A stretch of DNA of 35,241 nucleotides from a virus. The DNA lies in IMG/VR virus record IMGVR_UViG_3300037296_000329, positions 1 through 35,241 of that record, one strand, 5' to 3'. A program made the position numbers and the translations under genes. Of the stretch, positions 4,603-29,315 are shown piece by piece (position 1 is the stretch's first letter; every line of letters starts with the position of its first letter). The notes under the pieces are model-generated. The model saw only the letters and a program-made list of their open reading frames with translations. It was not told the origin of the DNA and searched no databases.

Positions 4603-6334
4603 AATAGCCTCTTATTTGTTTAGTTACTTTGCGGCTACTTACACGCGGAATACCGCCTGCACCAGTGCTCGACACCATCCATAAAATGGCAAGTGCACAG
4701 CTTAAATCGTAGTGATGCGTGGTTTGTTTTTCGGGCCAGTTTTCTAGCTCGTCGAGCAGTAAACGGCACCGCGTATGAAACGCAATTTGAGCTGGTGTAT
4801 TGGTTACATAAGTTTCAAGTGAGCCTATGCGTTCTTCTGCAGGTATAGTTGCAGTAACTCCACGCAGTGGCAGTGCAATGCCTTGCTCTAACCCCGTTTT
4901 AATAAACTGGCTGCGCATAAAATCAAACGCGTTATTGTTTTCAAAACCCCACACACGGCAGTTATATTCTTTTTGCGCACGTATTAAATCGTTAAGCAAA
5001 CGGCTAGTACCACGTACTTTGCGGCTTTCGTATTCAACGTGCAGCTTTTGTAAATCTTGAGAATAAAATCCCACTAATATAGCGCTGGGGTCGGCTTTTT
5101 CGGTTTTACCCATACTTGGATCACATGCACCATAAGGTACCCACTCGTTTAAGCGATCTACCCAAAAATCGAATTGGTAAAAAATAGACTCTTCATCGCT
5201 TTTGGCAATGCCTTGCATTTCACGGTTAAATTCGCGTTTATTAGCTGCCCACATGCACATTAAATCGTAAAGCGTTCGCACACTTGGCCAGCTGGTTTTA
5301 GCGCCCTTAAGCATTTGCTTTTTATTTTTTAGCCAAAACTTAAACGACGGTTTAGCCTCGGTTGAAACGGCTTCGCCTTTGGCGGCAGCGCGTTTTTCAA
5401 AGCGCTTATCGTCGTGCACCATTAAATCGCGACATTGTTCCCATAAATCCATGCGTTCAGGCATTTGCTTAATGGCTTTAAAGCGGTGAACAATATGGCC
5501 AGGTGCTTCTTCGGCGCGGCTTATTGGGTCGTCATTATTTAAAACCGTATTAACACCTAAAAACTTAACGCTGCCATCAGGCGGGCCTAGGTATTGCACC
5601 GCGGCTTCTAAAAAGCGCCAACGGTTATCGCGCTCAGTCGGCGATTTAGCTTCAGCATCGGTAATAATGTCATCAGAGAGTAGTAACTTAGGGCGACTAG
5701 CTCCGTGGAACGTACCGCGAACTGACTGCTCAGCACCCCGGCTTTCAAAGCGCACACCTTGAGCTGTTACAAACTCACCTAATTTCCACACAGGTGATGC
5801 TGTGCACACCTCGGGAAAGTCCAGCGCCAAGTTATTATTGTTAAGCAGTTCGGTTTTAACTACCTCTAACGTTTTGGTTGGCATTTTGGTTTCTGCGCCA
5901 AACAAAATAACAAAGTCGATAAACTGCTCAAGCTTTGCAAGACCTAGCTCTTGGCATACGTCAGGGTCTTGTAATAGCGCTAATACCGCTACATACACAG
6001 GGGCTATTTTTACACCAAGGGTACTTTTACCCTCACCACGTGGGGCAACAAACCAGTTTTTCCAACCGTTTTTAAGTTTAAGTGCTTCGGGGAACCACTT
6101 CATAAAATAGCTTTGAAATTCAGACGCATTTTGGTCGTCATCAAGCCACATATGATGCGGAAAGTAGGTGTATACAAAAAACTCAAAATCGCCACCAAGT
6201 ACGCGTTTACGGCGCTGTTTAATGGCGGCTGGGCTTGGATCTATATTGCGCTCTTTTGCTTCAATATCGCGGCGCAGAGAACCGGTTATTTGCTCTATTT
6301 CAGCTAAAAATTCACGTGAGTTCATATCGGCCAT
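4595..6334 (-). CDS. Terminase large subunit (Mu gp28-like)
   Basis: This 579-residue protein is the packaging motor ATPase/nuclease. The Walker A-like motif is PRGEGKST at residues 98-105 and a Walker B-like LLLSDD is at 217-222. The C-terminal RNase H-like nuclease begins with the acidic strand GACDPSMGK (D405) and continues with VWGFENNN (E465) and a C-terminal acidic segment near DLSCALAILW. It begins by a TAATG overlap with the small subunit and overlaps the portal gene by 8 bp. Length is normal for the gp28 family. It cuts and translocates DNA from the integrated copy, so some host flank is expected to be packaged. Confidence 0.95.
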   Translation of the reverse strand: MADMNSREFLAEIEQITGSLRRDIEAKERNIDPSPAAIKQRRKRVLGGDFEFFVYTYFPHHMWLDDDQNASEFQSYFMKWFPEALKLKNGWKNWFVAPRGEGKSTLGVKIAPVYVAVLALLQDPDVCQELGLAKLEQFIDFVILFGAETKMPTKTLEVVKTELLNNNNLALDFPEVCTASPVWKLGEFVTAQGVRFESRGAEQSVRGTFHGASRPKLLLSDDIITDAEAKSPTERDNRWRFLEAAVQYLGPPDGSVKFLGVNTVLNNDDPISRAEEAPGHIVHRFKAIKQMPERMDLWEQCRDLMVHDDKRFEKRAAAKGEAVSTEAKPSFKFWLKNKKQMLKGAKTSWPSVRTLYDLMCMWAANKREFNREMQGIAKSDEESIFYQFDFWVDRLNEWVPYGACDPSMGKTEKADPSAILVGFYSQDLQKLHVEYESRKVRGTSRLLNDLIRAQKEYNCRVWGFENNNAFDFMRSQFIKTGLEQGIALPLRGVTATIPAEERIGSLETYVTNTPAQIAFHTRCRLLLDELENWPEKQTTHHYDLSCALAILWMVSSTGAGGIPRVSSRKVTKQIRGYYV

Positions 6335-6840
6335 TAGTCGTCTAACTCCTTATCGAGCCGTGGACCAAACGCCGTGAGTATTTCAACAAACTCAGGAGCA
6401 AACTCTGGGTATTTGGTTGATACAAACTTAGCCAAAATTTTAAGTACCTCGGTTGCAATAGTGCGTTTTTCAAGGCGTTTATTACCGCCCGACACTTTCA
6501 TTACTTTGCTCATCATGTCGGTTAGTGAGCTTAAAACCTTGGTGCGTTGTTCAAGTGGTAACGCAGCGCCTTCAGCTGACTTTAAAAGCTCAAAGGTTTC
6601 GTTTACTTGAATAGTAAACTCTTCAATAAAGTCGGTAGTAAACTCCCCTGCAGTGCCTTCACTTCGTCGGCTTGCTGCGCGGGCTAAATCCCAATCGTCG
6701 CCATTGTCTTTGGCTTCCATTTTCCAGCGTCGTGCGGTGCCATCGGCCACGCTGTGTTTAATACCCGCAACACTCAGTGCTAGTAGCTCGGTTACATAGC
6801 TGTGGCGTACTGCGTTTTTTTTCTCTGCGGGGTGTGCCAT
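6334..6840 (-). CDS. Terminase small subunit (DUF1804 family)
   Basis: The 168-residue sequence has the DUF1804 pattern: MAHP start, a helix-turn-helix at about residues 14-40 with DGTARRWK, then GDDWDLARAA. The rest is helical. DUF1804 proteins occupy the small-terminase slot in B3/D3112-type Mu-like phages and recognise the packaging start at the phage end. It is joined by TAATG overlaps to the coiled-coil gene upstream and to the large terminase downstream, showing translational coupling. This family, rather than the DUF3486 seen in Mu itself, is one reason for the B3-like assignment. Confidence 0.9.
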   Translation of the reverse strand: MAHPAEKKNAVRHSYVTELLALSVAGIKHSVADGTARRWKMEAKDNGDDWDLARAASRRSEGTAGEFTTDFIEEFTIQVNETFELLKSAEGAALPLEQRTKVLSSLTDMMSKVMKVSGGNKRLEKRTIATEVLKILAKFVSTKYPEFAPEFVEILTAFGPRLDKELDD

Positions 6841-7178
6841 TAGTTCATCAATCCATTTTTTACGGCGTAGGCGATTAACGTTACCGCCAAACCCGCAGAC
6901 CCACCCATAGCAGCTACTTTAAGCCGCTGGTTAGTAAGTTTCTCTTCAACACTTTTTAAGCGCTCATCGTGTTTATTAATGGCGGTAACTTGGCGCTTTT
7001 CGCTTTCTTTTATATCGGTTTTTAATGCGTCGGTGACTACTTTTTGGCGTGCTTCGCTTTTTTCGATACTATGATGAATGTCGGCTTTTATCTCAGCAAC
7101 ACTGGTTAAAATGGCCTCTTGGCTTGCTTTAATAGAGCCAATAGATTCAAAAAGTAGGTTTTCTTGTTCTGGGGTCAT
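6840..7178 (-). CDS. Coiled-coil protein with C-terminal membrane anchor
   Basis: The 112-residue protein beginning MTPEQENLLF is a long heptad-rich helix (residues 5-85, rich in E, K, A and I) followed by one hydrophobic segment near the C-terminus (VAAMGGSAGLAVTLIAYAV). This resembles XhlA-like accessory lysis or cell-surface proteins. The start at 7178 is chosen because AAGGAT lies just upstream; a longer reading into the endolysin gene, up to 7238, is open but would overlap it by 50 bp without a better ribosome site. It follows the endolysin directly, which supports a lysis role. Confidence 0.75.
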   Translation of the reverse strand: MTPEQENLLFESIGSIKASQEAILTSVAEIKADIHHSIEKSEARQKVVTDALKTDIKESEKRQVTAINKHDERLKSVEEKLTNQRLKVAAMGGSAGLAVTLIAYAVKNGLMN

Positions 7179-7188
7179 TGGCCAATCC

Positions 7189-7632
7189 TTACGGGTTAAA
7201 TACTTTAATGCCCGTCCACATAGGCGTGCGTACATCAAAATGAAACCAACTTACTAAACCTTCAATGGCGGTAATGTCTGGAAACTCTTCAGGGTGGGCT
7301 AATACGTAATCACGTACTTGTTGGGCGGTATGATTTTTAAAGCTGCAGTCAAACCCTTTGCCAAGTTTGTGCTGGCTGCGCTTAGCACCATCGGTGCAAT
7401 CAAGTGGACGATAACCACGGTATTGATTAGCGCCGCCCCAATACCAGTTGTTTACAGTGCATGGGCCAAACTTTTCACGTAGTTTTTGCAACATGCGCAG
7501 CGCACGAGCATCAAAGCAATTGATTAAAAATAGAGGTGAATCTTTAAATAGTTCAAATGTTGCTTTAGGTACCAGTTCTTGAAATATAAAGCTGGGTGCT
7601 AAAGGAACCGCCACACGTTGTTTAAGTGCCAT
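7189..7632 (-). CDS. Endolysin, M15-type peptidase
   Basis: A 147-residue zinc peptidase of the VanY/M15 type that would cut the peptide stems of peptidoglycan. The motif SQHKLGKGFDC gives zinc ligands H88 and D95 (SxHxxGxxxD pattern) and WFHFDVR supplies H131. There is no signal peptide, so release needs a holin. It overlaps the preceding 84-residue gene by 11 bp. Length is normal for single-domain phage M15 endolysins. The same family also contains non-lytic D-Ala-D-Ala peptidases, but the phage location makes lysis the likely role. Confidence 0.9.
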   Translation of the reverse strand: MALKQRVAVPLAPSFIFQELVPKATFELFKDSPLFLINCFDARALRMLQKLREKFGPCTVNNWYWGGANQYRGYRPLDCTDGAKRSQHKLGKGFDCSFKNHTAQQVRDYVLAHPEEFPDITAIEGLVSWFHFDVRTPMWTGIKVFNP

Positions 7633-8041: not shown

Positions 8042-8250
8042 AGTTCGTTTAGCAGGTCGTTTACTTGGCGATCTGTAAGCGTGCCTTCTTCCAGTGCACC
8101 TTCAATTAATTGTCTCGCATCATCGTTTAATGCCATTTGGTTGTTAAAACATACACGGCGCAGACTACCGCCATTAATGTTCATGCCAGCGGTGACTTGA
8201 GGTGCCTCGCCTTCAAATTTAACTACGTAAGTTTGGTATTCAGATGTCAT
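8026..8250 (-). CDS. Hypothetical protein, 74 aa
   Basis: I do not recognise this protein. It starts with a beta-like segment (YQTYVVKFEG) and ends with an acidic helix (DRQVNDLLNELLTLL). Stop and start overlap by one base with the 63-residue gene upstream, so it is translated in the same operon. It is the last gene before the gap holding array A2, whose third repeat covers its stop codon. Confidence 0.65.
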   Translation of the reverse strand: MTSEYQTYVVKFEGEAPQVTAGMNINGGSLRRVCFNNQMALNDDARQLIEGALEEGTLTDRQVNDLLNELLTLL

Positions 8251-8441
8251 TATTTACCCTTGATTTCTTTATATGCTTCGCGGTATTCGTCCATCATGCC
8301 TGTTGTATCTAGGCCAAATAACTTGCGTTGGTTTATATACCGGTTAAACAAATTTAAACTGTGTTCGTACTGCCACGGCTTCGGCTTAGCGCCGCCGCTA
8401 AGCTGTAAAGCCGTGAGCAATACAAAGTTATTGTTTTGCAT
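8250..8441 (-). CDS. Hypothetical protein, 63 aa
   Basis: Unrecognised small protein with a KPKPWQYEHSLNLFNRYINQRKLFGLDTTGMMDEYREAYKEI-type helical core and no membrane segment or cysteines. It overlaps the zinc-ribbon gene upstream by 14 bp and touches the next gene, so it belongs to the middle operon that follows the Mor gene. Its position suggests a middle-gene accessory role only. Confidence 0.6.
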   Translation of the reverse strand: MQNNNFVLLTALQLSGGAKPKPWQYEHSLNLFNRYINQRKLFGLDTTGMMDEYREAYKEIKGK

Positions 8442-8679
8442 TACTTAAATGCGGTGGTATTTGTGTCCGCACTTCTTTATGCGTCGAAATTTTGAAAAAG
8501 CCACTGCCACAATGCCAACAGATCGATAACGTGTCCCAAACCACATCATTAGGTGGTTGAATTGTGCTTAACTCTTCATTACAGCACGGGCATTCAAATG
8601 CTATTAAAGGCACACCACGAGACTTTGCTTGATCAAAGTAATCTATTGCTTCTTTTCTTAAATCGCTTAGTGATTCCAT
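8428..8679 (-). CDS. Small zinc-ribbon protein, 83 aa
   Basis: The sequence shows two cysteine pairs, CPCC near residue 31 and CWHC near residue 55, spaced like a zinc ribbon, with FFKIS after the second pair. Such proteins bind nucleic acid or protein partners. It begins 9 bp after the stop of another small zinc-ribbon gene, with AGGGGA upstream of the ATG. Mu's Com protein is also a small zinc-finger regulator in a Mu-like phage, but I see no alignable similarity beyond the cysteines. Confidence 0.7.
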   Translation of the reverse strand: MESLSDLRKEAIDYFDQAKSRGVPLIAFECPCCNEELSTIQPPNDVVWDTLSICWHCGSGFFKISTHKEVRTQIPPHLSNAKQ

Positions 8680-24585: not shown

Positions 24586-24785
24586 GCAAAAAAACAGAGC
24601 CGCAATTAACCACGACTACCGACAGTAAAGCTGTGGAGCCTAAAGCCCCCGCTATGTCGCGAGCGATGACAATTGCACAAAACGTTAACCAAACTTTAGC
24701 AAATGCTAAAGGTAACAGAGATGAGCTAGCTGGCGCTTTTGATTTAAAGAGTGGTGAGCTAATTAAAGTGGAGGTTACGGCATGA
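24582..24785 (+). CDS. Hypothetical tail-region protein, 67 aa
   Basis: Small, charged and Thr/Lys-rich, with a central helix (MSRAMTIAQNVNQTLANAK) and an IKVEV C-terminus. It overlaps both neighbours by 4 bp (ATGA type), so it is coupled between the tail terminator and the tail tube. It occupies the gp38-like position in Mu-like phages but I see no domain to name. Confidence 0.65.
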   Translation: MSKKTEPQLTTTTDSKAVEPKAPAMSRAMTIAQNVNQTLANAKGNRDELAGAFDLKSGELIKVEVTA

Positions 24786-25681
24786 GCACGTGGCGATTTA
24801 AAGACAAACTCATTTTAGCAGATGCAGCTGGTACGACGCTAACTGGCCTACATGCAATATATGCCAGTGACGTGGAGTTTACGCCAGAGAGCGAAAGCGA
24901 AAAAGACGAGCTAGAAACCAGCTATAGCGGTGCAAGCATGGAAACCTTTTATGGCGAGCATGTAAGCCTAAACTTTAAAACACCGCTGGCAATGAGTGGT
25001 ACAGCGGGTACAGCACCAGCATATGCGCCACTACTGCTTGCCTGTGGCATGGTGCAAGTGGCTGATGTTAGCAGCGTTACCTTTACTAAAGGTGCGGCAG
25101 TGGCTGCTAAGTGCGCGTTACGCTTTGGTAAAAACACCCATAACATTACACAAATGAAAGGCAATGTGAGCTTTGCGCTTGAAAAAGGTAAGCCCATGCT
25201 TAACTGGCAGTTTAAAGGTTTGTTTAGTCCGCCGGTTGCAAGCAGTGCCCCGCCAAGTGTTGATTGGGATCGTTGGGTACGCCCCGAAGTGCTAGGCGTA
25301 AGTAACAGCTCTGACTTTAAACTAAGTGGCACCCAGCGCACGCTGCATAAGTTAACAGTTGATTTGGGTAATAACGTGGTGTTTGACCGTGCCATTAACC
25401 ACGAAGAAATTATGATTACCGGGCATGAAAGCAGCGCTAACTTTACACTAAGCGCCGATGAGCTAACAAACTTTGATCCATGGAAAGACGTGGGCAAAGT
25501 GCAAACGTTTGAGTTTACCCATGGTACTGCTATAGGTAAAAAAGTAACCATTATTGGGCGTTACCAAATGCCGTGGCCAAAATACACTAGCCTGGACTCG
25601 GAATTAACCGGTTACGAATTTGACGGCAAACTAGTACCCAGTGGCGCAGGCTATGACGAACTAACGATTGTTTTTGAGTAA
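24782..25681 (+). CDS. Major tail tube protein
   Basis: The 299-residue protein starts STWRFKDKLILADAAG and has an alternating beta pattern, with VEFTPESESEKDELETSYSG, a small-residue segment, then NFTLSADELTNFDPWKDVG and WPKYTSLDSELTGYEFDGKLVP. Its size and place before the chaperones and tape measure match the tail tube proteins of B3-like siphoviruses. There is no sheath gene, which is why I call a non-contractile tail. ATGA overlap with the preceding gene. Confidence 0.82.
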   Translation: MSTWRFKDKLILADAAGTTLTGLHAIYASDVEFTPESESEKDELETSYSGASMETFYGEHVSLNFKTPLAMSGTAGTAPAYAPLLLACGMVQVADVSSVTFTKGAAVAAKCALRFGKNTHNITQMKGNVSFALEKGKPMLNWQFKGLFSPPVASSAPPSVDWDRWVRPEVLGVSNSSDFKLSGTQRTLHKLTVDLGNNVVFDRAINHEEIMITGHESSANFTLSADELTNFDPWKDVGKVQTFEFTHGTAIGKKVTIIGRYQMPWPKYTSLDSELTGYEFDGKLVPSGAGYDELTIVFE

Positions 25682-25718: not shown

Positions 25719-26045
25719 ATGAAGTTAAAATTACTAAATGACTTAAAAAATGCGGTGGTAAAAGCCCCTCTTAATTTTGAGTTTGGGGGTGTGCTGTTTA
25801 AGTTTACCGCACACATAAAGCTAGTGCCAGAAAGCGAGCTAAAACTGCTGACTGAAAAGCAAGGCGCTAATGATGGTGAAATTGTACGTGAACTGCTTAT
25901 TAGCTGGGATGGCTTTGTTGATGACGGCAAAGACGTACCTTTTGCAAACGACACGCTTGAAGAACTACTGGCGTACAGCGGCATAACCGCCCGCTTAAGT
26001 GTTGAGTGTATTAATGCGCAGTACCGTATACACGAAAAAAACTAG
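25719..26045 (+). CDS. Tail assembly chaperone, zero-frame product
   Basis: A 108-residue protein: a beta-rich N-terminal part (LNFEFGGVLFKFTAHIKLV) followed by a helical stretch (TLEELLAYSGITARLSVECINAQYR). It ends with GAA AAA AAC and a TAG stop, which forms the slippery site. Position between the tail tube and the tape measure gene is that of lambda G. The upstream TTTAAA at 25711 is isolated. It is made alone or extended by -1 frameshift into the next frame. Confidence 0.85.
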   Translation: MKLKLLNDLKNAVVKAPLNFEFGGVLFKFTAHIKLVPESELKLLTEKQGANDGEIVRELLISWDGFVDDGKDVPFANDTLEELLAYSGITARLSVECINAQYRIHEKN

Positions 26046-26407
26046 CCGATGTTGCTAGGTGGTTTTTGGGCGACCTAGCAGCATCAAGTAAAACACTAGA
26101 TGACGACGAAGCCCATTTTGGTGCACCTAAAGCACCGCTTATAAAAGAAGATACATTATTTGTATTACCGCAAAACCACTGCGCTGTGATTGCACTTACA
26201 ACCGCGAGCAGCCAGTGGCAACGTGATAACGAAGGGGTAGAAATAGCCCTAGATTATGCCCGGGCAGATATAGCGTGGCGCTATGCAAATATAACGTTAA
26301 CCCCTAATGATTTTGAAAAACTACAAACATTAGAGCGCACCATAATAAACATAATAAGGCGACCCGATGAGCAACAAACTGAATTTGGCGTTACGCTTAA
26401 GTTATGA
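25719..26407 (+). CDS. Tail assembly chaperone fusion by -1 frameshift (lambda G-GT type)
   Basis: Zero-frame codons up to AAC (26040-26042) are followed in the -1 frame from CTA at 26042 to the stop at 26407. The predicted product is 229 residues: 108 from the first frame and 121 from the second (LADVARWFLGDLAASSK onward, a DUF1799-like sequence). The second frame has no good start of its own (TTG at 26066), as expected for the T part. The site is detailed in a separate feature. The short form and the fusion guide tail tube assembly round the tape measure. Confidence 0.8.
26036..26085 (+). promoter_or_regulatory. Programmed -1 frameshift site
   Basis: The slippery heptamer A AAA AAC is at 26036-26042, directly before the TAG stop. 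After a 5-nt spacer, GATGTTGCTAGG (26048-26059) pairs with CCTAGCAGCATC (26074-26085), 12 bp with one G-U, and a 14-nt loop. A-AAA-AAC is among the strongest known bacterial slip sites and the spacing is standard. Confidence 0.85.
26066..26407 (+). CDS. DUF1799-like downstream half of the tail chaperone
   Basis: This -1 frame carries 113 residues counted from its TTG, with a conserved DWRYANITL-like motif, reading DIAWRYANITLTPNDFEKLQTL near the end. It is probably not translated independently: its own start is a TTG without a good ribosome site, and the frame is open upstream to the slippery site at 26036. It overlaps the tape measure gene by 41 bp. Confidence 0.75.
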   Translation: MGDLAASSKTLDDDEAHFGAPKAPLIKEDTLFVLPQNHCAVIALTTASSQWQRDNEGVEIALDYARADIAWRYANITLTPNDFEKLQTLERTIINIIRRPDEQQTEFGVTLKL

Positions 26408-29315
26408 CGGTAAAGCGGTTAGTGCTGGTGCGCGCCAAAACGTAAACGAACTAAACCGCATACCCCAAGCAGTACAGCGTCAGGTGGCGGCTAACCAGCA
26501 ATTAGGCGCAAGCCAAGCCCGCATTATGCAACAGCAAGGCGCAATGACCCGCCAATTGGGGTTAATGAATACCGCGTATGGGCAAATAGGTGCAACCCTC
26601 ACGACCTTAGTGGGTATTGGTACCGCGACTATGTTTGTGCGTGATACCGGCGCTGCACAATTGCTAGATACTCGCTTAAAAGGATTAACGGGCTCAGCTG
26701 AAAATTACGCCAAAGTACAAGAGTATTTATTTGCTACATCTGATCGCTTAAATACCAATTACACTACGCTTGCTGATTCGTACAGCCGCGTTTTAACCTT
26801 GCAAGAGTCTGGGTTAGTGACTAACGCACAAGGTAAAGCGATATTAGAAGGTTTTGCCAATGTAGCCGCTAAAACAGGTGCCAGTAATGTACAGCTTGGG
26901 CAGAGTTTGTTTGGTATGACTCAAGGGATGACTGCCGGCGTTTTACGTGCAGAAGAGTTAAACCAAGTAACTGAGCCATTGCCAGGCTTAATGCAAAAGC
27001 TTGATAAAGCCAGTGGTGGTGTAGCAGGTAGTTTTAGGAAAATGGTGAATGCTGGGCAAGTCACCAGTGCCATGTTTAAAACCACATTAATAGCCGCGCT
27101 GGGTGATTATGCCGGTGCTGCCGAGGCCACTGAGGGTAAAATAAACGCCAGCTTTGCGGAAATGGGGAATGAGTACCAGCGCTTAATACGCAAATATGAA
27201 GAGCCTGTAAACTTTGCTGTTACCAGCGTGGTTGATTCTATTACCGATACCATGGCGTATTTACGTGAGAACGAAGACGCCGTAGATAGCTTAATGGTAA
27301 CAACAGGTGCATTAGCTACGGTACTTACTGGGCATTTAGCATCTGCTTTAGCTGCCAGTGGTAAAGGGTTTATTGCAAATATAGCCGCGAAGAATAAAGC
27401 GGTTATTACCGATGCTGCCTTAGCCAAGCAAGCAAATATAACGGCGATTGCTGAACACAAACGCGCATTACAAGATATAGAACGTGCGAAGCATAATGTA
27501 ATATTGGCGCAAACATCACAGCAACGCGCAGCAGCCCAAACTGCCGTTAATGTTGCAGAGCAAAGAGGTGTAATTACAGGCAATGCGTTAACCGCAACCA
27601 CTAAGGCGTATACCGTCGCAGCAGGCAGCGCCACGATTGCATCGCGTGGGCTTGCGACTGTTATGGGGCTTTTAGGTGGGCCAGTTGGTTTAGTGGTCAC
27701 TGCGGGTATAGCCCTGGCTTATTTTTTACGTGAGAGTGAAAAAGTTGAAAAACAAACACCCAAGTTAGAAGCCAAGCTTTATGATTTAGGGACTGCATTT
27801 GACTCTATAGATAATAAAAAAGCCACGACACAGTTAAGACAGACACAAACTGAAATTAATAAATATACGACCAACATTGAGCAAGCCTATAAAAAAATAG
27901 CGGATTTAAAGGCACGACAAGAAACCGCAAAAGGCACTCGCTTTGTTAGTTTATTCCAAAATCAAATAAATGAAACACAACAATATATAAACGAGCAAGC
28001 TAAGCTACGCGCAGAATCAATGAAGACAGCAGCTGAAATTGCTAACATAAAACAAAACCTCGACGCACTCGATTGGACTGACGCCACAGCAAAAACGAAA
28101 GGTGCAGCGAGTGCCCTACCCGATAACATTAAGCGTTTAGAAGTCAGCTTAATGGGCGAAGAGGCTCGCTTAAAAGACAGCTACGATAAACGTAAGCAAA
28201 TGGTGATCACCGCTCGTAGCAACGATGCTGGTAATAAAGCTAAATACGATGAAATTTTAAAGCAGCTTGATATTAAGTACAGTGATGACTTAAAAAGCAT
28301 AGCTGTTAAGCGCGAAGCTGATAAAACGCGGATACAAAACCAAGCAGAAGAAAAGCGTAAAAATGACTTACAACGTGATTTAGAAAACCGTATTGCCGTA
28401 GTTAAAGGCTTTGCTGGGCGTGAAGCGCTGGCTGCTTACAACAACGAACTGAGTGTTGAGCAAGCTAGGCAACAAGCCAGAGTTGATGCAAAACGCCGAG
28501 CACAAATTGGCTTGGCGGCTAATGATGATGCGGGCGAACTTGAATACAATGCTGATAGCCAAATTAAGGATTTGGAACGACAGACAGAACTTAATGCAGC
28601 TAACGGTTATTACAGCCAGCGCGAGGCTGACGAGGCAGCTCATCAAGAGCGGTTAATGCAAATTAAAAGCCGTAATACAGGTGCTTTACAAAGCAGTATT
28701 GTGGCCTTTGCTAACTTTGAAAAACAAACCGAAACAGAAAAAGCGGGTGCTATTGTTGGTTTAGGTGCTGCCACATTTAAAACAATGGCAGGACAAAGTA
28801 AAACAGCCTTTAAAGCGTATAAAGCATTTGCTATAGCGCAAGCAGTAATTAATACATATGAAGGTGCTACAGGTGCTTATAAATCGTTGTCTGTAATCCC
28901 CGTTGTTGGCCCCGTGCTGGGTGGCGTTGCTGCTGCAGCTGCTGTTATGCAAGGTATGCAGCAAGTACGGCAAATAAAAGCACAGCAACCAGCGGGTATT
29001 GCTCACGGTGGTTTAGACTATGTACCTAACGAATCTACTTATGTACTGCAGCGTGGTGAGCGTGTATTAAGCCCGAAACAAAATACCGAAATTAGCCAAA
29101 TGGCACGACGTTATAATGGTGGCGGCGCTGCTAATGATGCTGGTTCTGGCGGGGTTAGTATTAGTATTACCAACCAAATTACGGTGCAAGGCTCAACTAA
29201 TGAGCAAAACTCGCAAGCTGTTGGCCAAGACATAGCACGCAAGGTTGTGGGTGTTGTGGTAGCTAATATACAAGAAAACGGCTCGATTATTAGAGCAGTA
29301 CGTGGTGCTGCTTAG
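26367..29315 (+). CDS. Tape measure protein
   Basis: At 982 residues this sets tail length. The N-terminal coiled coil (20-60) is followed by the tape-measure domain (about 75-250, with MFVRDTGAAQLLDTRLKGL and YAKVQEYLFATSD). A hydrophobic segment lies at about 430-456 and another near the C-terminus (IPVVGPVLGGVAAAAAVM). A long coiled-coil middle (about 460-750) and the C-terminal GGLDYVPNESTYVLQRGERVLSP are typical. At about 0.15 nm per residue the tail would be roughly 150 nm, an inference. The start follows AAGGCGACCCG and overlaps the chaperone. Confidence 0.93.
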   Translation: MSNKLNLALRLSYDGKAVSAGARQNVNELNRIPQAVQRQVAANQQLGASQARIMQQQGAMTRQLGLMNTAYGQIGATLTTLVGIGTATMFVRDTGAAQLLDTRLKGLTGSAENYAKVQEYLFATSDRLNTNYTTLADSYSRVLTLQESGLVTNAQGKAILEGFANVAAKTGASNVQLGQSLFGMTQGMTAGVLRAEELNQVTEPLPGLMQKLDKASGGVAGSFRKMVNAGQVTSAMFKTTLIAALGDYAGAAEATEGKINASFAEMGNEYQRLIRKYEEPVNFAVTSVVDSITDTMAYLRENEDAVDSLMVTTGALATVLTGHLASALAASGKGFIANIAAKNKAVITDAALAKQANITAIAEHKRALQDIERAKHNVILAQTSQQRAAAQTAVNVAEQRGVITGNALTATTKAYTVAAGSATIASRGLATVMGLLGGPVGLVVTAGIALAYFLRESEKVEKQTPKLEAKLYDLGTAFDSIDNKKATTQLRQTQTEINKYTTNIEQAYKKIADLKARQETAKGTRFVSLFQNQINETQQYINEQAKLRAESMKTAAEIANIKQNLDALDWTDATAKTKGAASALPDNIKRLEVSLMGEEARLKDSYDKRKQMVITARSNDAGNKAKYDEILKQLDIKYSDDLKSIAVKREADKTRIQNQAEEKRKNDLQRDLENRIAVVKGFAGREALAAYNNELSVEQARQQARVDAKRRAQIGLAANDDAGELEYNADSQIKDLERQTELNAANGYYSQREADEAAHQERLMQIKSRNTGALQSSIVAFANFEKQTETEKAGAIVGLGAATFKTMAGQSKTAFKAYKAFAIAQAVINTYEGATGAYKSLSVIPVVGPVLGGVAAAAAVMQGMQQVRQIKAQQPAGIAHGGLDYVPNESTYVLQRGERVLSPKQNTEISQMARRYNGGGAANDAGSGGVSISITNQITVQGSTNEQNSQAVGQDIARKVVGVVVANIQENGSIIRAVRGAA

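Follow-up and report, generated by a model that had tools for sequence, protein, structure and literature searches.

The window analysed here, the whole 35,241 bases of IMG/VR virus record IMGVR_UViG_3300037296_000329 (42.2% G+C), contains two consecutive open reading frames in a −1 relation to each other (25719-26045 and 26042-26407, plus strand) just before the tape measure gene, and raises the question as to whether these are two ordinary overlapping genes or a single gene whose distal part is reached by programmed ribosomal frameshifting. Such an arrangement is reportedly shared by many phages, Xu, Hendrix and Duda being said to have described in 2004 the lambda G/G-T −1 frameshift together with its counterparts in long-tailed dsDNA phages. 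The genome context is that of a Mu-like-head siphophage of the Pseudoalteromonas type: the window encodes a Mu transposase (PF09299), a Mu portal protein (PF06074), a Mu F protein (PF04233) and a major head protein that matches phrog_1005, as well as a siphovirus-like tail block composed of a tail terminator (PF23840), a probable tail tube protein, the two ORFs of interest and a tape measure protein. The gene at 24782-25681 (plus strand) is assigned by position as the probable major tail (tube) protein; it has no Pfam match, and its positional counterpart in Vibrio phage vB-Vv-ZX4290 bears the annotation tail tube protein. The 982-residue tape measure protein (26367-29315, plus strand; PF20155 TMP_3, E 3.2e-38) begins within the second of the two ORFs, overlapping its end by 41 nt (26367-26407). 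In its build the window resembles the PSA-HS6-like Pseudoalteromonas phages (PMC5498523), in which Mu-like head and transposition functions are joined to a siphovirus tail in genomes of ~35 kb and ~40% GC; the terms 'frameshift' and 'chaperone' do not occur in the main text of that description.

The upstream ORF, hereafter G-like, runs from ATG to TAG over 108 codons (25719-26045) and its 3' end reads ...GAA AAA AAC TAG. The heptamer A_AAA_AAC at 26036-26042 is phased as a tandem −1 slip requires, the run of seven A residues to which it belongs extends from 26035 to 26041, and the TAG stop codon (26043-26045) directly adjoins it. The −1 frame stays open from 26015 to 26407 and continues for 121 codons beyond the heptamer, such that conceptual translation of 25719-26042 followed by 26042-26404 yields a fusion of 229 residues with EKN-LADVAR at the join; the −1 frame extension, hereafter T-like, thus occupies 26042-26407 (121 residues and a stop). 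An earlier note had proposed a frameshift cassette at this position, and its heptamer directly before the TAG, its −1 frame open from the site to 26407 and its 229-residue product with KNLADVAR across the join are all borne out, the last as a translation (...EKNLADVAR...). The accompanying claim that the −1 frame has no proper start is nearly right, in that the TTG at 26066-26068 is the only ATG, GTG or TTG of that ORF as far as 26068, but this codon lies in a hairpin loop where every one of 55 loci compared has a start-like TTG or GTG, a point to which we return below.

The heptamer by itself is unremarkable, AAAAAAC being observed 16 times in the window versus 25.7 expected, and its frequency lends some colour to the idea that an A-rich heptamer merely happens to lie beside two ordinary overlapping genes. 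Among 83 in-frame heptamers of the form X_XXY_YYZ, drawn from all ORFs of at least 60 codons on both strands, only that at 26036 has a stop codon directly behind it. Chance juxtaposition is refuted as far as a sequence can do so by the conservation, covariation and synonymous suppression described below, all of which count against it, and we regard its probability as close to negligible. We note in passing an in-frame AAAAAAT at 6861 on the minus strand, located 12 nt before the end of ORF 6840-7238, where the −1 frame extends for 173 codons without a stop into gene 6334-6840; this is probably an ordinary gene overlap.

The G-like protein matches phrog_569 (E 5e-8) and phrog_313, 'Tail assembly chaperone' (E 0.0045). 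Within its family, phrog_569 is matched by 22 of 24 members, and phrog_313 and phrog_8233, both named tail assembly chaperone, by six of 24 each; phrog_569 and the T-like match phrog_680 both bear the label tape measure protein. Its AlphaFold model is of high confidence (pLDDT 93.4), and a comparison with viral folds ranks an unnamed protein first (E 4.8e-4) and the tape measure chaperone of Klebsiella phage Solomon second (E 1.8e-3), with the chaperones of Salmonella phage 9NA and Enterobacter phage Ec_L1 further down. Among solved structures, a PDB fold ranking places 3fgx first (Z 5.5), 3klu (YqbN) second (Z 4.5) and 2ob9, the HK97 tail assembly chaperone, fifth (Z 3.3), with Z scores that are low and too weak to stand alone; a Foldseek search of the PDB gave no match at E<=0.001, and a sequence search of solved structures gave nothing convincing, the best match being a flagellar P-ring protein at E 0.038. 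The modelled fold of the upstream protein resembles that of phage tail-assembly chaperones. The T-like protein matches phrog_680 (E 4e-9), and although its score against DUF1799 (PF08809) is 14.5 bits, under the curated cut-off of 26 bits, 22 of 24 relatives match that family at E<=0.1, the best at 1.9e-5; judged by sequence comparison, it is a relative of DUF1799 and not a filed member. The model of the T-like domain is poor (pLDDT 63.5), too poor for a fold search.

Conservation among relatives establishes that the cassette is real. The comparison of close relatives includes 55 loci (the window, L048-L095, L126, L044-L047 and L146), from which we omitted L001-L043, L096-L125 and L127-L143, as these represent the same places or contigs again, and L144 and L145, which repeat L044 and L047. 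The 55 loci overlap in origin, some being one prophage in two collections, and the better numbers are the 22 distinct 60-mers and 50 distinct gene pairs that they contain. Recruitment patterns included the stem-encoded peptide DVARW[FY][LV]G with any synonymous codon permitted, so that the choice of residues is biased and the choice of codons is not. Sites were located by the pattern AAAAAAAC followed by a stop codon; no locus failed, and the first of two candidates was taken in L048. All 55 loci have GAAAAAAAC followed by a stop codon, which is TAA in 29 and TAG in 26. In 18 of them a TGA in the −1 frame ends exactly at the 5' edge of the heptamer, and a change of frame ahead of the 0-frame stop is therefore possible there only within the heptamer itself.

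Synonymous variation is depressed in the same region. In the 50 distinct gene pairs, for which 1,119 of 1,225 pairwise sequence comparisons were used, the ratio of synonymous difference to expectation is 0.00 at the codons GAA, AAA, AAC and CTA. Ten-codon windows average 1.06 (sd 0.35; n 215), and those on the heptamer and stem have values of 0.20 (26034-26065) and 0.28 (26051-26083). Values below these, including the lowest of the whole pair, occur only at 26366-26404, where a dip is expected because the T-like ORF and the tape measure gene overlap, and which therefore serves as a positive control. One contig, represented by L033 and L095, holds a prophage copy in which the loss of one base disrupts the G-like ORF close to its start and leaves the heptamer and stem intact; L095 enters the 50 gene pairs as a 67-codon piece of the broken 0-frame ORF. 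The relatives in named genomes (L044-L047) are all four in Pseudoalteromonas, and of 394 genomes searched within one order, three gave a T-like match, one of them being the L044 genome. Neither a tblastn search with either protein nor a search with 15 kb of window DNA recovered a close relative among named phages.

A strong hairpin follows the heptamer. RNAfold gives −25.7 kcal/mol for 26036-26100 (z −4.73, with none of 200 shuffles as good), and the 45-mer at 26043-26087 ranks sixth by folding energy among 23,464 overlapping windows; when 161 nt are folded the same stem is kept in the minimum-energy structure and the z score falls to −2.72. The stem in the window comprises 13 base pairs including one G-U (26048-26060 with 26073-26085), and three further pairs form within the 12-nt apical region (26061-26072). 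The conserved core is shorter, with 10 base pairs between a 5' arm at 26051-26060 and a 3' arm at 26073-26082, and starts 8 nt past the heptamer (spacer 26043-26050). The three outermost pairs (26048-26050 with 26083-26085) are kept only in the window's own group and are not conserved. A strong hairpin had been predicted, but as a 12-bp stem with a 14-nt loop behind a 5-nt spacer; the 5 nt result from counting the three non-conserved outer pairs, and the dimensions are better given as 13 bp for the window's own stem and as 10 bp with an 8-nt spacer for the conserved one. With that spacing the covarying stem falls within the 5-9 nt beyond the heptamer at which a structure is looked for in RNA-stimulated −1 frameshifting. 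A separate and stronger structure, at 8371-8418, is the strongest short hairpin of the window, with 45-mers down to −28.4 kcal/mol on both strands, and lies near the overlap of the minus-strand ORFs 8250-8441 and 8428-8679.

Pairing in the core stem is preserved without exception, all 220 cells (22 distinct sequences by 10 pairs) being standard pairs. At three of the pairs both sides have changed (U-A to G-C, U-A to C-G, and G-C to A-U), in 10 cells altogether. The covariation score of 0.234 compares with a shuffled mean of 0.143, is reached by none of 500 shuffles and exceeds that of slid partners (<=0.141), whereas the bare count of three doubly changed pairs is matched by 47 of the 500 shuffles. 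No Rfam family matches near the site above its gathering score, the best chance match there having 16.8 bits versus 36. We also considered whether the stimulator is a pseudoknot and not a plain hairpin, with loop bases UGGGC (26067-26071) paired to GCCCA (26111-26115). The five pairs could form in 47 of the 55 loci and would involve the invariant loop G at +32, but the other eight loci, which fall into three groups, break the interaction without compensatory double changes, and the bases involved also code for conserved residues. A pseudoknot is unlikely on this evidence.

One feature, in the apical loop, does not follow from plain frameshifting. A start-like codon stands at heptamer +30 in all 55 loci (26 TTG, 29 GTG), even though TTG accounts for 14% of Leu codons and GTG for 22% of Val codons in the two ORFs. 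In 51 loci it is preceded at a distance of 6 nt by AGG (26057-26059 in the window), and in the other four by AAG (three) or GGG (one) in the same place, with pairing kept. The invariant codon could be an internal start, or it could include a loop base needed for a tertiary contact. If the former, the T-like domain would arise by its own initiation at 26066 with AGG as the core of a Shine-Dalgarno sequence, either in place of the fusion or as free T besides it, and an ATG at the equivalent position in L148 and L151-L154 could be taken in the same sense. Such a start would nevertheless be buried in a strong hairpin, its AGG is already required by the stem and is altered in four loci where the pairing is kept, and the heptamer with its abutting stop would be left unexplained. 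Among 21 more distant loci, moreover, the +30 codon is not ATG, GTG or TTG in 16, and nine lack any such codon in the −1 frame between its last stop and +60, so that an internal start is not a general route to T. We therefore consider independent initiation distinctly improbable. To a hairpin with a dual role, acting as the −1 stimulator and presenting an internal start in its loop (AGG-N6-TTG/GTG) for a free T-like third product, we give a very slim chance; if this were true, the levels of G, G-T and T would be set by one RNA element that is opened and closed by the passage of ribosomes.

The distant loci also bear on how the two frames are joined. The T-like ORF of Vibrio phage vB-Vv-ZX4290 has relatives in 19 loci, with best-segment identities of 35 to 99% to its protein, and all 19 have an in-frame AAAAAAC; the stop codon abuts it in 18, and in L167 it follows 3 nt later. 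Both L147, from the same order, and vB-Vv-ZX4290 itself (L148) have the heptamer, an abutting TGA and a hairpin, with z scores of −3.58 and −3.64 respectively. The stems of the distant loci are unrelated in sequence to the Pseudoalteromonas-type stem and vary in strength: folding is very strong in the L159 group (−27.3 kcal/mol) and weak behind the heptamer in L157, L158, L161, L167 and L169 (−12.4 to −16.7 kcal/mol), such that the stem is not uniformly strong in this group. In the record of vB-Vv-ZX4290 (PV485168.1; 2921-3268 of L148) the corresponding pair is entered as two hypothetical proteins, the second of them starting at a GTG beyond the heptamer; they are likely a frameshift pair.

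One of the distant loci, L152, has eight A residues instead of seven at ~1499, which joins both chaperone frames in a single frame of 250 codons; the eighth A may be a mutation or a homopolymer sequencing error. Together with the run of seven A residues in the window, this copy is what might be expected if RNA polymerase were to add an A within the run and the fusion were then made by normal translation. Efficient transcriptional slippage usually requires longer runs. The run here has only seven residues, and six in many distant loci (for example L157-L169 and L147) in which the phase of the heptamer is intact; furthermore, the covarying stem lies 3' of the run and presumably could not form in nascent RNA before the run had been copied. 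Transcriptional slippage is thus highly improbable as the source of a fusion.

The frameshift reading put forward in the earlier note is accordingly supported by the heptamer and its stop codon, the covarying stem, the synonymous suppression, the chaperone fold of the upstream product, the DUF1799-like T domain and the tape measure gene next to it. We consider it very probable, judging from the comparative sequence data, that a −1 programmed ribosomal frameshift of the lambda G/G-T type occurs at 26036-26042, and we infer the production of the fusion, slippage at a rate of a few per cent, a tandem-slip route and a role in assembly. Points that count against this reading are the low shiftiness of A_AAA_AAC in Escherichia coli (below), the poor model and sub-threshold DUF1799 score of the T-like domain, the weak folding behind the heptamer in five distant loci, the lower z score of the 161-nt fold and the start-like loop codon. 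Most ribosomes would translate the G-like ORF to the TAG at 26043 and release the 108-residue protein, while a minority, delayed by the 10-bp hairpin 8 nt past the heptamer, would move back by one base with AAA and AAC occupied by tRNA-Lys and tRNA-Asn, respectively. The shifted ribosomes would pass the TAG and read to 26407, adding the T-like domain to make the 229-residue fusion. If the roles are as in lambda, both proteins would bind the tape measure protein through their G part, and the less abundant fusion would use its T part to recruit tail tube subunits.

The likeness to lambda G/G-T extends to the two ORFs in a −1 relation between the major tail and tape measure genes, the heptamer that ends the first of them, and the pairing of a chaperone with its fusion. 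The window differs in having A_AAA_AAC with an abutting stop codon and a strong, covarying hairpin; lambda's own slip site is a different one, and the structure there is weak. In lambda the ratio of gpG to gpGT is 30:1, gpG is found on the tape measure protein and T binds the tail tube protein, according to a review that also describes A_AAA_AAC as much less shift-prone than A_AAA_AAG in Escherichia coli (PMC5009743); such low shiftiness would fit a low ratio aided by a strong hairpin.

The same heptamer has been described in several other tail-chaperone genes. In Acinetobacter phage Loki (gp12/gp13) AAAAAAC is directly adjacent to the stop codon and an 'identical motif' is noted in IME_AB3 (PMC5313236), the available text of that account mentioning neither a downstream hairpin nor a comparative test. 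A_AAA_AAC is likewise the slip site of the tape-measure chaperone pairs of two unrelated viruses, Caulobacter phage phiCbK (gp93/gp94; PMC3556154) and the haloarchaeal virus HCTV-2 (PMC5009743), and possibly of the tail chaperone of Paenibacillus phage Dragolir (AAAAAAC; PMC6003738). It is among the consensus heptamers listed for a cluster of HK97-type tail chaperones, two members of which gave 6% and 7% in reporters; the main text of that study does not mention Pseudoalteromonas (PMC3711429). Phage B3, a relative by its head genes, has a single chaperone ORF and a tail module of another kind, and the authors of the KS10 report, in its available part, state that no frameshift site was found. 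The literature searched, which excluded most subscription papers, contained no paper on the Pseudoalteromonas site. The mechanism is thus a known one and an AAAAAAC abutting a stop codon in a tail-chaperone gene has already been published for Loki; the site in the window is a new and unusually well-supported example.

Although the site opens no new mechanism, it provides a large and clean set of marine transposable phages in which a tail-chaperone frameshift signal can be compared; the hairpin covaries, and a stop codon always abuts the heptamer in the close loci. It also points to a host genus that must be able to use an A_AAA_AAC site, and it puts right the annotation of the Vibrio relative, where the T-like ORF is entered as a hypothetical gene of its own starting at GTG. 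If frameshifting does occur here, one gene would give rise to both a short and a long tail-assembly helper protein, as is known for tailed phages.
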